Source of the DNA: Candidatus Buchananbacteria bacterium
Lineage (GTDB): Bacteria > Patescibacteriota > Patescibacteriia > 2-01-FULL-39-33
Length of the DNA stretch: 33,175 nucleotides
Assembly (NCBI GenBank): GCA_903863425.1
Contig: CAIPBY010000002.1
Coordinates: 1 to 33,175 of the forward strand
Direction of reading: 5' to 3'
Shown here: piece after piece, positions 4,052 through 29,486 of the stretch
Numbering within the stretch: the first letter of the stretch is position 1
Layout of the letters: every line of letters begins with the position of its first letter
Notes under the pieces: generated by a model
The model's database searches: none
What the model saw: the letters and a program-made list of their open reading frames with translations, nothing else
Told to the model about the DNA's origin: nothing
Made by a program: the position numbers and the translations under genes

Positions 4052-4324
4052 ATGAAAAGAGTAAATGCGGTTACTATTTATAGACCCAAAAAACGCATCA
4101 TCTTGGTGCGTGTTCCTGATGGCGACAGATCAAGTTGCGAGATTAATGTGACGGGTCAGTTTCGCAAGGCTTTCGGCGGTAAATTGAACGCCAAGATACT
4201 TAGGGCGATTTTTGCCACGGCGCCTAGGACGCTGGAAGTTCTTTTTGAAAGCGGTCCTGTTCGTATTAGCGAAGACAGTATCGAAAGCTGGTATCAGCGG
4301 ACGCTTAGGAAGATGTTGCGATAA
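4052..4324 (+). CDS. Unknown 90-residue basic protein (first gene of cassette)
   Basis: I do not recognise this family. The 90-residue product is basic and soluble, with no signal peptide, membrane segment or cysteine cluster. Alternating strands (AVTIYRPKKRIILVRV, then CEINVTGQFRKAF) suggest a small mixed fold. The start is supported by CGGAGGACAG about 7 bases before the ATG, a strong Shine-Dalgarno site of a kind absent from most genes in the window. Base composition is visibly richer in G and C than in neighbouring housekeeping genes. It is followed 35 bases later by another orphan gene, and the pair has its own consensus promoter and terminator. This suggests an acquired two-gene cassette. 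Confidence 0.7.
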   Translation: MKRVNAVTIYRPKKRIILVRVPDGDRSSCEINVTGQFRKAFGGKLNAKILRAIFATAPRTLEVLFESGPVRISEDSIESWYQRTLRKMLR

Positions 4325-4359
4325 AGCCAGGATTCAATTTTAATGAAAGGATGCGCGGG

Positions 4360-4860
4360 ATGATTGAAATTAGAGATTTATCCGACATGCAACTATGCTG
4401 GCTTCTCCTGCGGTGGATAGCCGACAGTTATCAGGGAAGACAAAGGCTAGCAAAGAACGGTACGCTTCTTCTTTGTTTTTTGGAGATAGTGGTTGATCGG
4501 GAGATTATCTATGACGATTACAGGGAGAACGTATCGACGTTACTCATGGAGGCCGGAAGAAGGGTCCTGGAGGTTAGGGAGTATCCTCGGCAAACTCAAA
4601 TGATGTTGCCATTTAAATTGGTTGCATTTCTGCCGAACTGTGCGCTTGCATATGTTCTGTTGGATCAATTGAGTAGATGGTATCATTATGAGCTTGCCAG
4701 GAAGGGAAAACATTCACCCAAGGGTTATTTAAGTTTTGAGGCTGCCATTTTCGATGTAGCCTTTCAGCTTTTCCCGATAGAATGCCTTTCTGCCACCGAA
4801 TTTAATCCATCGTTTGAGGAGATTGTCTCCGAGGCTGAGAGAAAGTCGAGGAGAGGATGA
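4360..4860 (+). CDS. Unknown 166-residue protein (second gene of cassette)
   Basis: No family recognised. The product is mostly helical with a Leu/Trp-rich beginning (LCWLLLRWIADSY), a hydrophobic middle (LVAFLPNCALAYVLLDQL) too short and mixed to be a confident membrane span, and a basic C-terminus (ERKSRRG). The ATG at 4360 is chosen because GAAAGG at 4345-4350 sits about 9 bases upstream. The in-frame ATG at 4351 directly abuts that site. Composition matches the preceding gene. A rho-independent terminator follows 25 bases after the stop. Confidence 0.68.
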   Translation: MIEIRDLSDMQLCWLLLRWIADSYQGRQRLAKNGTLLLCFLEIVVDREIIYDDYRENVSTLLMEAGRRVLEVREYPRQTQMMLPFKLVAFLPNCALAYVLLDQLSRWYHYELARKGKHSPKGYLSFEAAIFDVAFQLFPIECLSATEFNPSFEEIVSEAERKSRRG

Positions 4861-11014: not shown

Positions 11015-11043
11015 TTGACAAAAAGTTAATATTTTGTTATTTT
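11015..11043 (+). promoter_or_regulatory. Promoter of the 11.1-13.4 kb cassette
   Basis: TTGACA (11015-11020), 17 bases, TATTTT (11038-11043). The leader of about 65 nt ends in AAAGGAGGTGA, a full-strength Shine-Dalgarno site, six bases before the ATG at 11114. Confidence 0.75.
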
Positions 11044-11113
11044 ATGATGATGCCATGTGGGCATTATTTTCTGTACATCACAATAAAAATAGGTTTGGAA
11101 AGGAGGTGAAACG

Positions 11114-12403
11114 ATGAAATTCGCAGATTACAGTAGTAACTATTCGCGTGACTATCTGGCTGGCTATCAGCCCACCAGAGAACCGCTATTCCCAACATGG
11201 TCTTTGTGGATGAAAGTGCGTGCTTGGATGATTATCACCATGTGCGTATTATTATTCGCAGACCTGGATTTTGTGGCGCAGTATCTTGCCGCAGGTCCGA
11301 GTGAGAGGATGCAAGTCGGTACACCCGAGTGGAACCAGAAAATGAAGGAGTTTGTCGCCGCCAAAAATATGGAATCGAAGCTTGCAGGAAATCAAGAGCT
11401 TACCATGTCTAAGGCGGTTGAACTCCAGCACCAAATGTATGATTTGGGTGAGGACCTGGGTTTGTATCCTTGTGGAGGCTCTCGAGCCACTAGGTATGTG
11501 TATGAAGATTGTCTGAAAATCTACACATGCAACTGGCATCCGCCCAACGACTGGTCCGAGCAGGACAGGAATAAGGCGGAGCAGTGGGAACCGGACTTGA
11601 AGGAAGAACGCGTTCGTAATATCTTCTGGGGTCTGTGGGGTAAAGAGTGTAAAGAATACAACGAAGCTCATCCCCGAATCAACAGACCGCCCGAGACCAT
11701 TACTGGCGCGCGGATTCTGGTCTTGCTCTACTGGTTGGTGAAGTGGTATAGCCTTATGACCATTCCGGCACTCCTGATTTTTCTGCTCAACAGAAGAAGC
11801 GCCGGAGAGATGGTGCTCGGGCAACCACGAAGAATCCTCTTGGCTTGTTGTTTTGGGCCGATTGGAATCTTGGCGATTTCGGATGATGCCGTACGCGCGC
11901 GAAGTTATAATGAGCTATCTTCTTGGTACCAGCGGGAATATTGCAAAACCCGTTTAGAAAAGAAAGAGAAGCTCGCTTTGTGGCAAATGGTCGACAATCC
12001 GCTTTTGAAGTTTGAAGAAGCGGTTGGGTTGATTAGCGGCAGAAAGTTTCGGCGACCTGCTCTCGCTTGCTTATTGGCTTGGCTGATAGGCATGTGGCTA
12101 AGCCCGGTTCCGAAGAACGTCATTAGGTATGTTGCAGTGGCGTTTGTGTCTAGTGAACAAAATCTTCCGGAGGCTAAAGTCAAAGGCGGAAGCGATCCGT
12201 CAATGCTGATGGCGATAATGCCGACGGAAGTAGAAGTGCAATACGAAGAAGTTACAGTTGTGGTCGAAGAAGAGCAGGCGGAAGTCAGCTGGCTGTACCA
12301 GTTGGCCGAAAACCCGCGTGCGCCTCCGGTCGCGGTCAAGGAACAACACGAGAATTCATTCTCGACCCTTGGCTGCACAAACAGTAAAGGGTTGATCAAA
12401 TGA
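11114..12403 (+). CDS. Unknown multi-span membrane protein (cassette partner of the barrel protein)
   Basis: The 429-residue protein is not recognised. Hydrophobic spans are at about residues 35-52, 203-228, 241-257 and 318-335. Between the first two is a soluble stretch with four to five cysteines (YPCGGS, YEDCLKIYTCNW, GKECKEY). The C-terminal 90 residues are acidic and Pro/Val-rich (EVEVQYEEVTVVVEEEQAEV). The start has the best Shine-Dalgarno site in the window (AAAGGAGGTGA). Its stop overlaps the next start as ATGA, implying translational coupling with the beta-barrel gene. Base composition is richer in G and C than the housekeeping genes. A transferred two-gene envelope module is plausible; function unknown. 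Confidence 0.75.
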   Translation: MKFADYSSNYSRDYLAGYQPTREPLFPTWSLWMKVRAWMIITMCVLLFADLDFVAQYLAAGPSERMQVGTPEWNQKMKEFVAAKNMESKLAGNQELTMSKAVELQHQMYDLGEDLGLYPCGGSRATRYVYEDCLKIYTCNWHPPNDWSEQDRNKAEQWEPDLKEERVRNIFWGLWGKECKEYNEAHPRINRPPETITGARILVLLYWLVKWYSLMTIPALLIFLLNRRSAGEMVLGQPRRILLACCFGPIGILAISDDAVRARSYNELSSWYQREYCKTRLEKKEKLALWQMVDNPLLKFEEAVGLISGRKFRRPALACLLAWLIGMWLSPVPKNVIRYVAVAFVSSEQNLPEAKVKGGSDPSMLMAIMPTEVEVQYEEVTVVVEEEQAEVSWLYQLAENPRAPPVAVKEQHENSFSTLGCTNSKGLIK

Positions 12404-13443
12404 AGAAAGTAACGTATGTTGCGATCGTGTTGTTGTCTCTGTGTTTAAGCGTTGTGGCCGTGGGCGAGGAGCGGAAAGGTTTCATCCCGCCGATGGAAGT
12501 CGGTGGAGGAACGCTCGCACTGCGCGGGTTCGCGTGGTGGACGGTCACATCCAGCGATGGAAAAATTGCGGAAGATGTTCCATACTTCCGCATCCACGCC
12601 AAGTACGACTTCGACCAGTTCGGCTTTGGCGCCGTCGTTAATTTTCCGGAAATTTGGAATGGAAAAGGCAACGAATTGTGTGAGCTCTGGGGTAAGGTCA
12701 AGCTGACCGACAACTTCGAAGCCTATGCTGGACGCCTGTTCCTTCCTTCCGGCTACTATTGGCCATCTCCTGATATGCGCGAAACACTGCCACCCAAGGC
12801 GGAGACTTTCGACTCATATGCCTGGGGCGGAATGCTGGTTAATACCTGGGAGGATGGCTCGACCGCAAAGTTGGCTCTTTCAGGAAGGCCGGGCGTGACG
12901 TTTGACAGCGACACGAACTGGACGACCTGGTGCCTCTCCGGGAGACTGGAGAAGAAATGGGATGCCAACTCGGTAGGCGGTATCTTCGAGATCACCGGCG
13001 AATGTCGAAGGTTCGATGTGGACACCACGTGCAAGCCGACTGAAACCTTGACGCTAAGGGCTGGCACTACGTACGAGCAGAACCTGGACAAGAAGACCAG
13101 TGATCGCGTAGGCCTGTATTTCTTCGCCGCGTATCGGCCGATCAGGGAGTTTGAGGTCGACTTCATGATCGACTACCTCCAGTCTTTGGCCAAGAGCTGG
13201 GAGGAGACGAAAGTCTCGGTCGACAAGAAGACAGGAAAGGTTTCTGTCAGTATAGCGCAGTACCAGAGCAGTGATGCTCATGTTACGACGCTTACTATTG
13301 GCGGGCGTTTTTTCCCGGCGACTCTATTCTCTAAGGATACTTTCGATTGGCTGTCAGTGACGGTCGATGTGAGAATCCCTCTGGAGAATGAGGGCTCGGG
13401 TAAGGATCCGAGCGTCTGGTTTAAGACTCAGATCGCGTTCTGA
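12400..13443 (+). CDS. Predicted outer-membrane beta-barrel (porin-like) protein
   Basis: The 347-residue product starts with a clear signal peptide (MKKVTYVAIVLLSLCLSVVAV). It then consists of amphipathic strands with alternating aromatic residues, for example LALRGFAWWTVTSS, FEAYAGRLFLPSGYYWPS, GLYFFAAYRPIREFEVDF and LTIGGRFFPATLF. It ends in WFKTQIAF, with a terminal Phe as in BAM-targeted barrels. Overall it resembles phosphate-selective-porin-type or outer-membrane receptor barrels. CPR bacteria are generally described as lacking an outer membrane, so the protein is unexpected. The gene is GC-rich (clearly above neighbours), translationally coupled to the membrane protein upstream (ATGA overlap) and has its own strong terminator. 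The fold is inferred from sequence pattern only. Confidence 0.72.
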   Translation: MKKVTYVAIVLLSLCLSVVAVGEERKGFIPPMEVGGGTLALRGFAWWTVTSSDGKIAEDVPYFRIHAKYDFDQFGFGAVVNFPEIWNGKGNELCELWGKVKLTDNFEAYAGRLFLPSGYYWPSPDMRETLPPKAETFDSYAWGGMLVNTWEDGSTAKLALSGRPGVTFDSDTNWTTWCLSGRLEKKWDANSVGGIFEITGECRRFDVDTTCKPTETLTLRAGTTYEQNLDKKTSDRVGLYFFAAYRPIREFEVDFMIDYLQSLAKSWEETKVSVDKKTGKVSVSIAQYQSSDAHVTTLTIGGRFFPATLFSKDTFDWLSVTVDVRIPLENEGSGKDPSVWFKTQIAF

Positions 13444-13457
13444 GGTATCGCAAGCTT

Positions 13458-13512
13458 CGGGGTGCCGGTTAGTCATGATACGTAGATGACTAACTGGCAC
13501 ACCCGATTTTTT
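13458..13512 (+). terminator. Strong terminator of the barrel cassette
   Basis: A long hairpin (about 18 bp with small interruptions; left arm 13458-13476, right arm ending at 13505) is followed by T7. It is the most stable-looking terminator in the window. Confidence 0.88.
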
Positions 13513-28157: not shown

Positions 28158-28191
28158 TATTTGAATTTAGTTTTATTATTTAAATGGGGGA

Positions 28192-28224
28192 CGGACTGCA
28201 GAAGTGTGTGACTACTGCAGTCCG
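28192..28224 (-). terminator. Hairpin after the zinc-knuckle microprotein gene
   Basis: A perfect 10-bp inverted repeat (28192-28201 with 28215-28224) with a 13-nt loop lies 9 bases beyond the minus-strand stop codon. No T-tract follows (a C5 run does), so it may stabilise the 3' end rather than terminate. Confidence 0.5.
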
Positions 28225-28232
28225 ATGCGCGA

Positions 28233-28385
28233 TCATGCCGCCACCCTTTGGGGTGGGGGGATGGTCAATGTGGCTTTTTTGGGAAGTGGTCCCAGTTTGC
28301 AAACAACACAAATAGGGCCACCTACTTCGCGGTACTTACCAATGCCGGGTGGCAAAGGCCTACCGCACAAAGAGCATTCTTCCAT
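28233..28385 (-). CDS. 50-residue zinc-knuckle microprotein
   Basis: This short frame encodes MEECSLCGRPLPPG..., with two CxxC pairs (CSLC near residue 4, CVVC near residue 26), the spacing of a small zinc ribbon, and a Pro-rich tail (LTIPPPQRVAA). Support is strong for such a short gene. It has an AAGGTGAC Shine-Dalgarno site five bases before the ATG, a perfect consensus promoter, a 10-bp hairpin in the leader, and a hairpin after the stop. The first half looks like a Cys4 treble-clef or DksA-type knuckle. I cannot name the family; a nucleic-acid or ribosome-associated role is a guess. Confidence 0.75.
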   Translation of the reverse strand: MEECSLCGRPLPPGIGKYREVGGPICVVCKLGPLPKKATLTIPPPQRVAA

Positions 28386-28397
28386 ATTGTCACCTTT

Positions 28398-28442
28398 GTT
28401 ATTGCCTTGTTTTTACTTTTCGACATATTCCTAGGCAATAAC
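28398..28442 (-). promoter_or_regulatory. Leader hairpin of the microprotein mRNA
   Basis: GTTATTGCCT (28442-28433, minus strand) and AGGCAATAAC (28407-28398) form a perfect 10-bp stem with a 25-nt loop. The stem starts at the predicted transcription start and ends a few bases before the Shine-Dalgarno site, so it may protect the 5' end or control ribosome access. Confidence 0.6.
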
Positions 28443-28447
28443 GAGTT

Positions 28448-28476
28448 ATTATAAGTAAAATTAGATTAATTGTCAA
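28448..28476 (-). promoter_or_regulatory. Perfect consensus promoter of the microprotein gene
   Basis: Minus strand TTGACA (28476-28471), 17 bases, TATAAT (28453-28448). All twelve positions match consensus. Confidence 0.88.
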
Positions 28477-29038: not shown

Positions 29039-29102
29039 TATATCGGTAATTCAGCGAGATTCTTTACAACCAGCTGTGCTAGTAGAAGGAGAGGATTCGG
29101 TC

Positions 29103-29486
29103 ATGGCGAAGGTATTGATAATTGATGATGAGGAAGATGTGCGCGTGATGATAGCCAGAACATGCAATATTGCTGGCGTGGAGGTTGTTCAAGCCGAGAG
29201 TGGCCTGAATATTGAAAGAGTCGTGGATTCCGAAGTAATTGTGGCATTTCTGGATTGGGCTGGTGACAGCCAAGGACTGGAGTGTGCCCGGTTCCTCTAC
29301 GAGTGGTTTCCCAAGATTCGTGTCTATATTTTCTCGGGCAACGATCGCAGGGTCATCGTGAGGAATCTTTATTCGGAGAGTGTCTCCGTAGCCGGAGTTG
29401 TCGATAAGACAGCTTCCATGGAGGAAATTGAGTTGCTGGTACGTTCGGCTCTGTACGCCAAAAAGGCCGAAGGGGCTACGGCGTGA
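29103..29486 (+). CDS. Stand-alone response-regulator receiver (CheY-like) protein, atypical
   Basis: The 127-residue protein is a single receiver domain. The acidic pocket is in VLIIDDEEDV (residues 8-10), the phosphoacceptor Asp is in FLDWAGD (Asp51), the switch Ser is in IFSGND and the conserved Lys is in VDKTAS. The usual KP dipeptide is KT, and the loop after Asp51 is altered (WAGDS). The ATG at 29103 is chosen for the GGAGAGG site 8 bases upstream; an in-frame ATG at 29076 would add nine residues before the domain. It has no output domain and no kinase neighbour. It has its own promoter and terminator and the same Shine-Dalgarno-led, GC-richer style as the cassettes at 4.0 and 11.1 kb. 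Confidence 0.82.
   Translation: MAKVLIIDDEEDVRVMIARTCNIAGVEVVQAESGLNIERVVDSEVIVAFLDWAGDSQGLECARFLYEWFPKIRVYIFSGNDRRVIVRNLYSESVSVAGVVDKTASMEEIELLVRSALYAKKAEGATA

Follow-up and report, generated by a model that had tools for sequence, protein, structure and literature searches.

A two-gene unit in an AT-rich genome

The window analysed here, a stretch of 33,175 nucleotides, belongs to a MAG of Candidatus Buchananbacteria (hereinafter, G000) that comprises 1.12 Mb in 101 contigs, is 98.8% complete and has an overall GC content of about 0.38. The organism is tiny and probably host-dependent. Flanked by ordinary CPR genes lies a unit of two genes, one for a membrane protein, to which we refer as the partner, and one for a predicted porin-like beta-barrel, with the start codon of the barrel gene overlapping the stop codon of the partner gene (ATGA; Table 1). 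A strong Shine-Dalgarno-led operon overlapping a membrane-protein gene had been proposed in the sequence-only reading, and indeed, the AAGGAGGTG motif and the ATGA overlap are both in place and the gene order is kept in G005 and G006, genomes from two other genera of the same family that also belong to Candidatus Buchananbacteria. The barrel and the partner are probably made together from one transcription unit. The promoter candidate should be treated as a lead only, because sigma-70-like matches in the region do not exceed the number expected from shuffled sequences.

Table 1. Features of the two-gene unit, in window coordinates
Feature	Position	Strand	Basis
Sigma-70-like promoter candidate, TTGACA-17-TATTTT	11015..11043	+	10/12 consensus matches
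Shine-Dalgarno AAGGAGGTG of the partner gene	11100..11108	+	sequence
Partner gene, 429-aa multi-spanning membrane protein	11114..12403	+	conserved beside the barrel in G005, G006
347-aa exported porin-like beta-barrel (predicted)	12400..13443	+	AF2 model, Foldseek, homologues
Signal peptide of the barrel (predicted), residues 1-22, MKKVTYVAIVLLSLCLSVVAVG	12400..12465	+	helix 2-22 in the model; sequence pattern
C-terminal beta-signal-like strand, KTQIAF-stop, ending in Phe	13423..13443	+	Phe enrichment in the barrel set
Intrinsic terminator hairpin and U run, end of the unit	13457..13506	+	-35.3 kcal/mol, z -6.67

The barrel gene had been noted as GC-richer than its neighbours, and its composition (GC of 0.54; GC3 of 0.66, the 99.3rd percentile of the genome) bears this out. 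The GC shift in the window extends over 11.1-13.5 kb, and the switch coincides with gene boundaries. The unit is one of a set of genes scattered through the AT-rich genome, in which 67 of 844 ORFs have GC3 above 0.5; a Shine-Dalgarno match of at least 5 bases precedes 51% of these high-GC3 genes compared with 18% of the low-GC3 genes. Given that barrel genes of the relatives likewise have a GC3 above the mean of their neighbours in most of the loci compared, high GC alone does not indicate recent transfer. The window contains three further small GC-rich units, at 4052-4860, 28160-28450 (reverse strand) and 29076-29486, each with its own Shine-Dalgarno sequence and terminator, which encode two ORFans, a small Cys-rich protein and a response-regulator receiver domain.

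A predicted porin-like fold

The ORF of the barrel was confirmed at its full length of 347 aa. Both the structural model and the sequence pattern point to a signal peptide, a hydrophobic helix of residues 2-22 that ends in V-A-V-G, and no internal helical transmembrane segment was found beyond this Sec signal. Hydrophobic alternation in the protein exceeds that of shuffled sequences (z of 2.97, next to a 99th percentile of 3.0 in the genome background), the aromatic content is 14.5%, and the C-terminal residue is Phe (F347), as in only 28 of the 844 ORFs of the genome (3.3%). A C-terminal Phe is typical of BAM substrates and is recognised by BAM. In the set of barrels that we collected, 23 of 28 share this residue, a figure to be read against the same genomic background as an enrichment and not as a precise probability, since the members of the set are relatives and the starting protein was picked partly for its Phe. 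The signal peptide, the alternating strand pattern and the terminal Phe had all been called from the letters alone, and all three calls proved correct.

Structure prediction with AF2 from the single sequence gave no usable model (pLDDT of 32). On an alignment of 3 sequences, composed of the window protein and related loci with the wider barrel set left out, it yielded a model of moderate confidence with 18 strands (pLDDT of 65, pTM of 0.59), in agreement with the 16- or 18-strand barrel anticipated beforehand. In Foldseek searches with this model, general porins came first and matched over the whole length, led by OmpU (E of 4.9e-9) and followed by OmpK36, OmpC and OmpF, with TM scores of about 0.55-0.63, a probability of 1.0 and an rmsd of 8-10 A; no competing fold appeared among the top PDB matches. 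At the sequence level, the window protein passed no curated family cut-off, with the FadL family (PF03349) as the best Pfam hit at 11.1 bits against a cut-off of 29.7, and a search of PDB by sequence returned nothing. In its relatives, all Pfam hits below the cut-off are to families of outer-membrane barrels, namely, Toluene_X, OMP_b-brl (6.6e-4), Porin_4, BBP2 and Porin_O_P. Taken with the model, these observations suggest that 12400-13443 probably encodes a Sec-exported, porin-type transmembrane beta-barrel. The moderate confidence of the model and the lack of a family hit over cut-off for the window protein would also suit a secreted, soluble beta-rich surface protein, such as an adhesin or a lectin; however, the porin match over the whole length, the C-terminal Phe, the relatives that pass outer-membrane barrel cut-offs and the lack of a competing PDB fold make such a protein quite improbable.

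Conservation of the partner-barrel pair

The partner is predicted to span the membrane 4 times, with TM1 and TM2 separated by a large loop, and belongs to no Pfam, NCBIfam or PADLOC family; by sequence, it produced only weak, scattered hits in PDB (best E of 0.065). A role in anti-phage defence was considered and rejected, there being no PADLOC hit. A profile search recovered the partner in 19 of 381 class genomes and in a genome of another class, G440, which is a single contig of 915 kb and carries the pair. At most loci, the partner homologue is directly followed by an exported protein of barrel character, and in G074 and G015, and probably also in G144 and G181, partner and barrel form one ORF, in which the last hydrophobic segment of the partner is succeeded by an A-x-A-like site and then by the barrel. 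According to the predicted topology, the partner lies in the membrane of the organism itself, and its tail or, in the fusions, the barrel is located outside the cytoplasm.

The pair occurs in the same order in G000, G005 and G006, and also in G132 and G304. Barrel homologues in G005 and G006 are 29-34% identical to the window protein, and more distant barrels were found in G132, G224, G074, G267 and G304. Some partner homologues stand beside shorter barrels of about 200 aa, one of which (L151) exceeds the OMP_b-brl cut-off (29.3 against 28.7 bits) and two of which (L150 and L151) exceed that of Phenol_MetA_deg, with the other barrels of this size just below. For two close pairs of barrels, dN/dS values of 0.10 and 0.16 indicate purifying selection. 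The data thus support the partner-barrel pair as a module that has been conserved in the evolution of Buchananbacteria and further Patescibacteria. No relatives of the barrel were found in phages (50,697 records), plasmids or viral contigs. One further class match, on contig C1 of G059, turned out to be a polynucleotide phosphorylase and was set aside as a chance hit.

G000 also contains a second, divergent copy of the barrel, split between contigs C24 and C97, which share an exact overlap of 79 bp (C24:12039-12117 and the end of C97) inside the paralogue. A second branch at this overlap leads to a Cys-rich ORF and represents either a fork in the assembly graph or a real rearrangement.

Assembly chimerism, one of the options raised in the sequence-only reading, or contamination of the bin could account for the GC shift at 11.1-13.5 kb and for the position of the paralogue at the assembly-graph branch. 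However, the same module is present in independent MAGs from other projects and in the single-contig genome G440, the composition switches at gene boundaries, and the genes on either side of the unit are ordinary CPR genes, so that an artefact of this kind is scarcely credible. Recent acquisition, another of those options, finds no support, given that the relatives are only about 30% identical and that high GC3 recurs in their barrel genes.

FadL-type and other outer-membrane-type proteins

The barrel of the two-gene unit is not the only protein of outer-membrane type in these genomes. In G000, the product of C36:183-1352 (L166) passes the cut-off of the FadL/TodX family (PF03349; 36.1 against 29.7 bits), and FadL proteins were found in 6 of the 10 genomes from the same taxonomic family as G000, in 7 of 192 class genomes and in 1 of 192 phylum genomes. 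The best family-wide match reaches an E of 1.7e-43, and for the protein from G003, sequence comparison also gives matches to solved structures of FadL/TodX. With both sets combined, a gene of the porin-like or FadL type is present in at least 8 of the family's 10 genomes; G005 and G006 did not appear in the FadL sample.

In three genomes, G002 (L177), G003 (L175) and G009 (L178), the fadL-type gene lies in a syntenic region, where it is adjoined by a gene for 3-hydroxyacyl-CoA dehydrogenase in G002 and G003 and by a thioesterase-like gene in G009; an acyl-CoA-synthetase-type AMP-binding gene is located about 6 kb away in G002, and a weakly FabA-like hot-dog gene (E of 0.076) is found nearby in G003. 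These loci possibly represent a fatty-acid uptake locus in Patescibacteria. The partner is not adjacent to the FadL genes, and its absence there argues that it is not a general insertase.

Three other genes of G000 deserve mention in this context. C20:6220-7257 encodes a protein of 345 aa with a signal peptide, a C-terminal Trp and a barrel-like appearance, for which no Pfam hit was obtained, and C44:1-513 and C8:5624-7435 are GC-rich, lipoprotein-like genes, one with Ig-like domains and one with a weak beta-helix hit.

The outer-membrane genes could, in principle, have been acquired horizontally from Gram-negative neighbours and be expressed without a working membrane location, that is, be passing through or decaying. 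Their high GC3 relative to the genome and the patchy spread of both the partner (19/381) and FadL (7/192) would fit such a history. However, the ORFs are intact, the operon and the fusions are conserved, dN/dS values are low (0.10-0.16), the barrels of other genera are 29-34% identical with similar GC3, FadL is syntenic in three genomes, and the unit has its own terminator. Thus, we regard this scenario as unlikely.

Assembly machinery and the cell envelope

The sequence-only reading, an outer-membrane-type barrel in a CPR genome that lacks recognisable BAM, finds support in the fold, the homologues, the conserved operon and the searches described next. No Omp85 protein (PF01103) scored above the cut-off in any of 144 class genomes or in any of 8 carriers, in a search that placed 7 of 14 control genomes over the cut-off and in which the Pfam models could miss a very divergent Omp85. 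POTRA domains (PF07244) were above the cut-off in 0 of 14 genomes, including all ten of the family, and LptD (PF04453) in 0 of 17. Positive controls were detected in these searches. An Omp85-like hit in G074, of 17 bits and with an internal stop, fell below the cut-off and was not counted.

Patescibacteria have been described as monoderm, and Saccharibacteria and other members as lacking fatty-acid synthesis (PMC12857230; see also PMC7143001). Our literature search, which left most subscription papers and all preprints outside its range, retrieved no description of such barrels in CPR. The Patescibacteria studied here thus seem to export barrels of the porin and FadL types while having no recognisable means of inserting them.

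Possible destinations of the barrels

How might such barrels function? The barrel could be exported either through the last segment of the partner or by its own signal peptide, and the partner would place or anchor it at the cytoplasmic membrane. From there, the barrel would be delivered to an outer membrane, where it might work as a diffusion channel and supply solutes or lipids that the organism, an auxotroph, would have to scavenge. The location of the barrel, whichever the membrane or host, is a point that we infer.

Of the possible locations, we rank first the outer membrane of a contacted Gram-negative host, where the barrel would be folded by the BAM of another cell, and we give this reading somewhat less than an even chance. 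It is favoured because neither Omp85/BamA nor POTRA nor LptD is recognisable in these genomes, yet the terminal Phe that BAM recognises is strongly kept; if the protein never encountered a BAM, it would be hard to see why this residue is retained so strictly. Extended to the full set of proteins, the proposal is that porins and lipid transporters of the FadL type are exported by episymbiotic Patescibacteria, with an inner-membrane partner dedicated to the porin-like ones, and that the host BAM folds them into the host outer membrane, so that the episymbiont would install nutrient or lipid conduits of its own in the envelope of its host. We advance this wider scenario tentatively.

Ranked below the host outer membrane is a cryptic outer membrane of the organism itself, equipped with porins and FadL, in which insertion would depend on an Omp85 that is too divergent to be recognised or on another insertase, possibly involving the partner. 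FadL is syntenic in three of the family's genomes, accompanied there by genes for 3-hydroxyacyl-CoA dehydrogenase, acyl-CoA synthetase or thioesterase, and this arrangement speaks for import for own use. Indeed, the placement of FadL next to apparent fatty-acid-metabolism genes suggests uptake into the cytoplasm of the organism itself, which fits an outer membrane of its own better than a pore in the host. Furthermore, topology assigns the partner to the membrane of the organism itself, some genomes have it fused to the barrel, and G000 encodes several barrels. By contrast, Omp85, POTRA and LptD all stay below the cut-offs in the carriers tested, CPR are described in the literature as monoderm, and the FadL genes have no partner beside them. 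On balance, an own outer membrane is the main alternative and only somewhat less likely, and folding by the BAM of a contacted host is the reading that we prefer.

The question touched on here is how CPR bacteria, described as monoderm and without fatty-acid synthesis, obtain their membrane lipids and solutes. Genomes without recognisable BAM that nevertheless encode a module of porin-like barrel and partner, and FadL beside apparent fatty-acid-metabolism genes, pose a choice between an unrecognised outer membrane in CPR and barrels in the outer membrane of the host, and either answer would alter the textbook picture of the CPR envelope.

Comparison with known systems

With the general porins OmpU, OmpC, OmpF and OmpK36, the window barrel shares its length, the signal peptide and a strand pattern with C-terminal Phe. 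It is, however, only 10-15% identical to them, has 18 predicted strands rather than 16, produces no Pfam porin hit over the cut-off, and is encoded next to a membrane partner by an organism in which no BAM is recognisable. Some of the partner-side barrels of about 200 aa pass, or nearly pass, the cut-offs of OMP_b-brl (PF13505) and Phenol_MetA_deg (PF13557), whereas the window barrel is larger, remains below these cut-offs and comes from a Patescibacterial context. The FadL/TodX family (PF03349) has true members in G000 (C36) and in 5 other genomes of the family and provides the best sub-threshold hit of the window barrel; by the cut-off, however, the latter is not a member, and the FadL genes that we have seen lack an adjacent partner. 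Finally, phage-encoded porins (OmpC-like and Porin O/P-like proteins in BFVD) match the window barrel in fold (E of 5.6e-8), and their carriers rely on the BAM of another cell. Unlike these, the window barrel is chromosomal and has a dedicated partner, and the 50,697 phage records contain no match to it in sequence.
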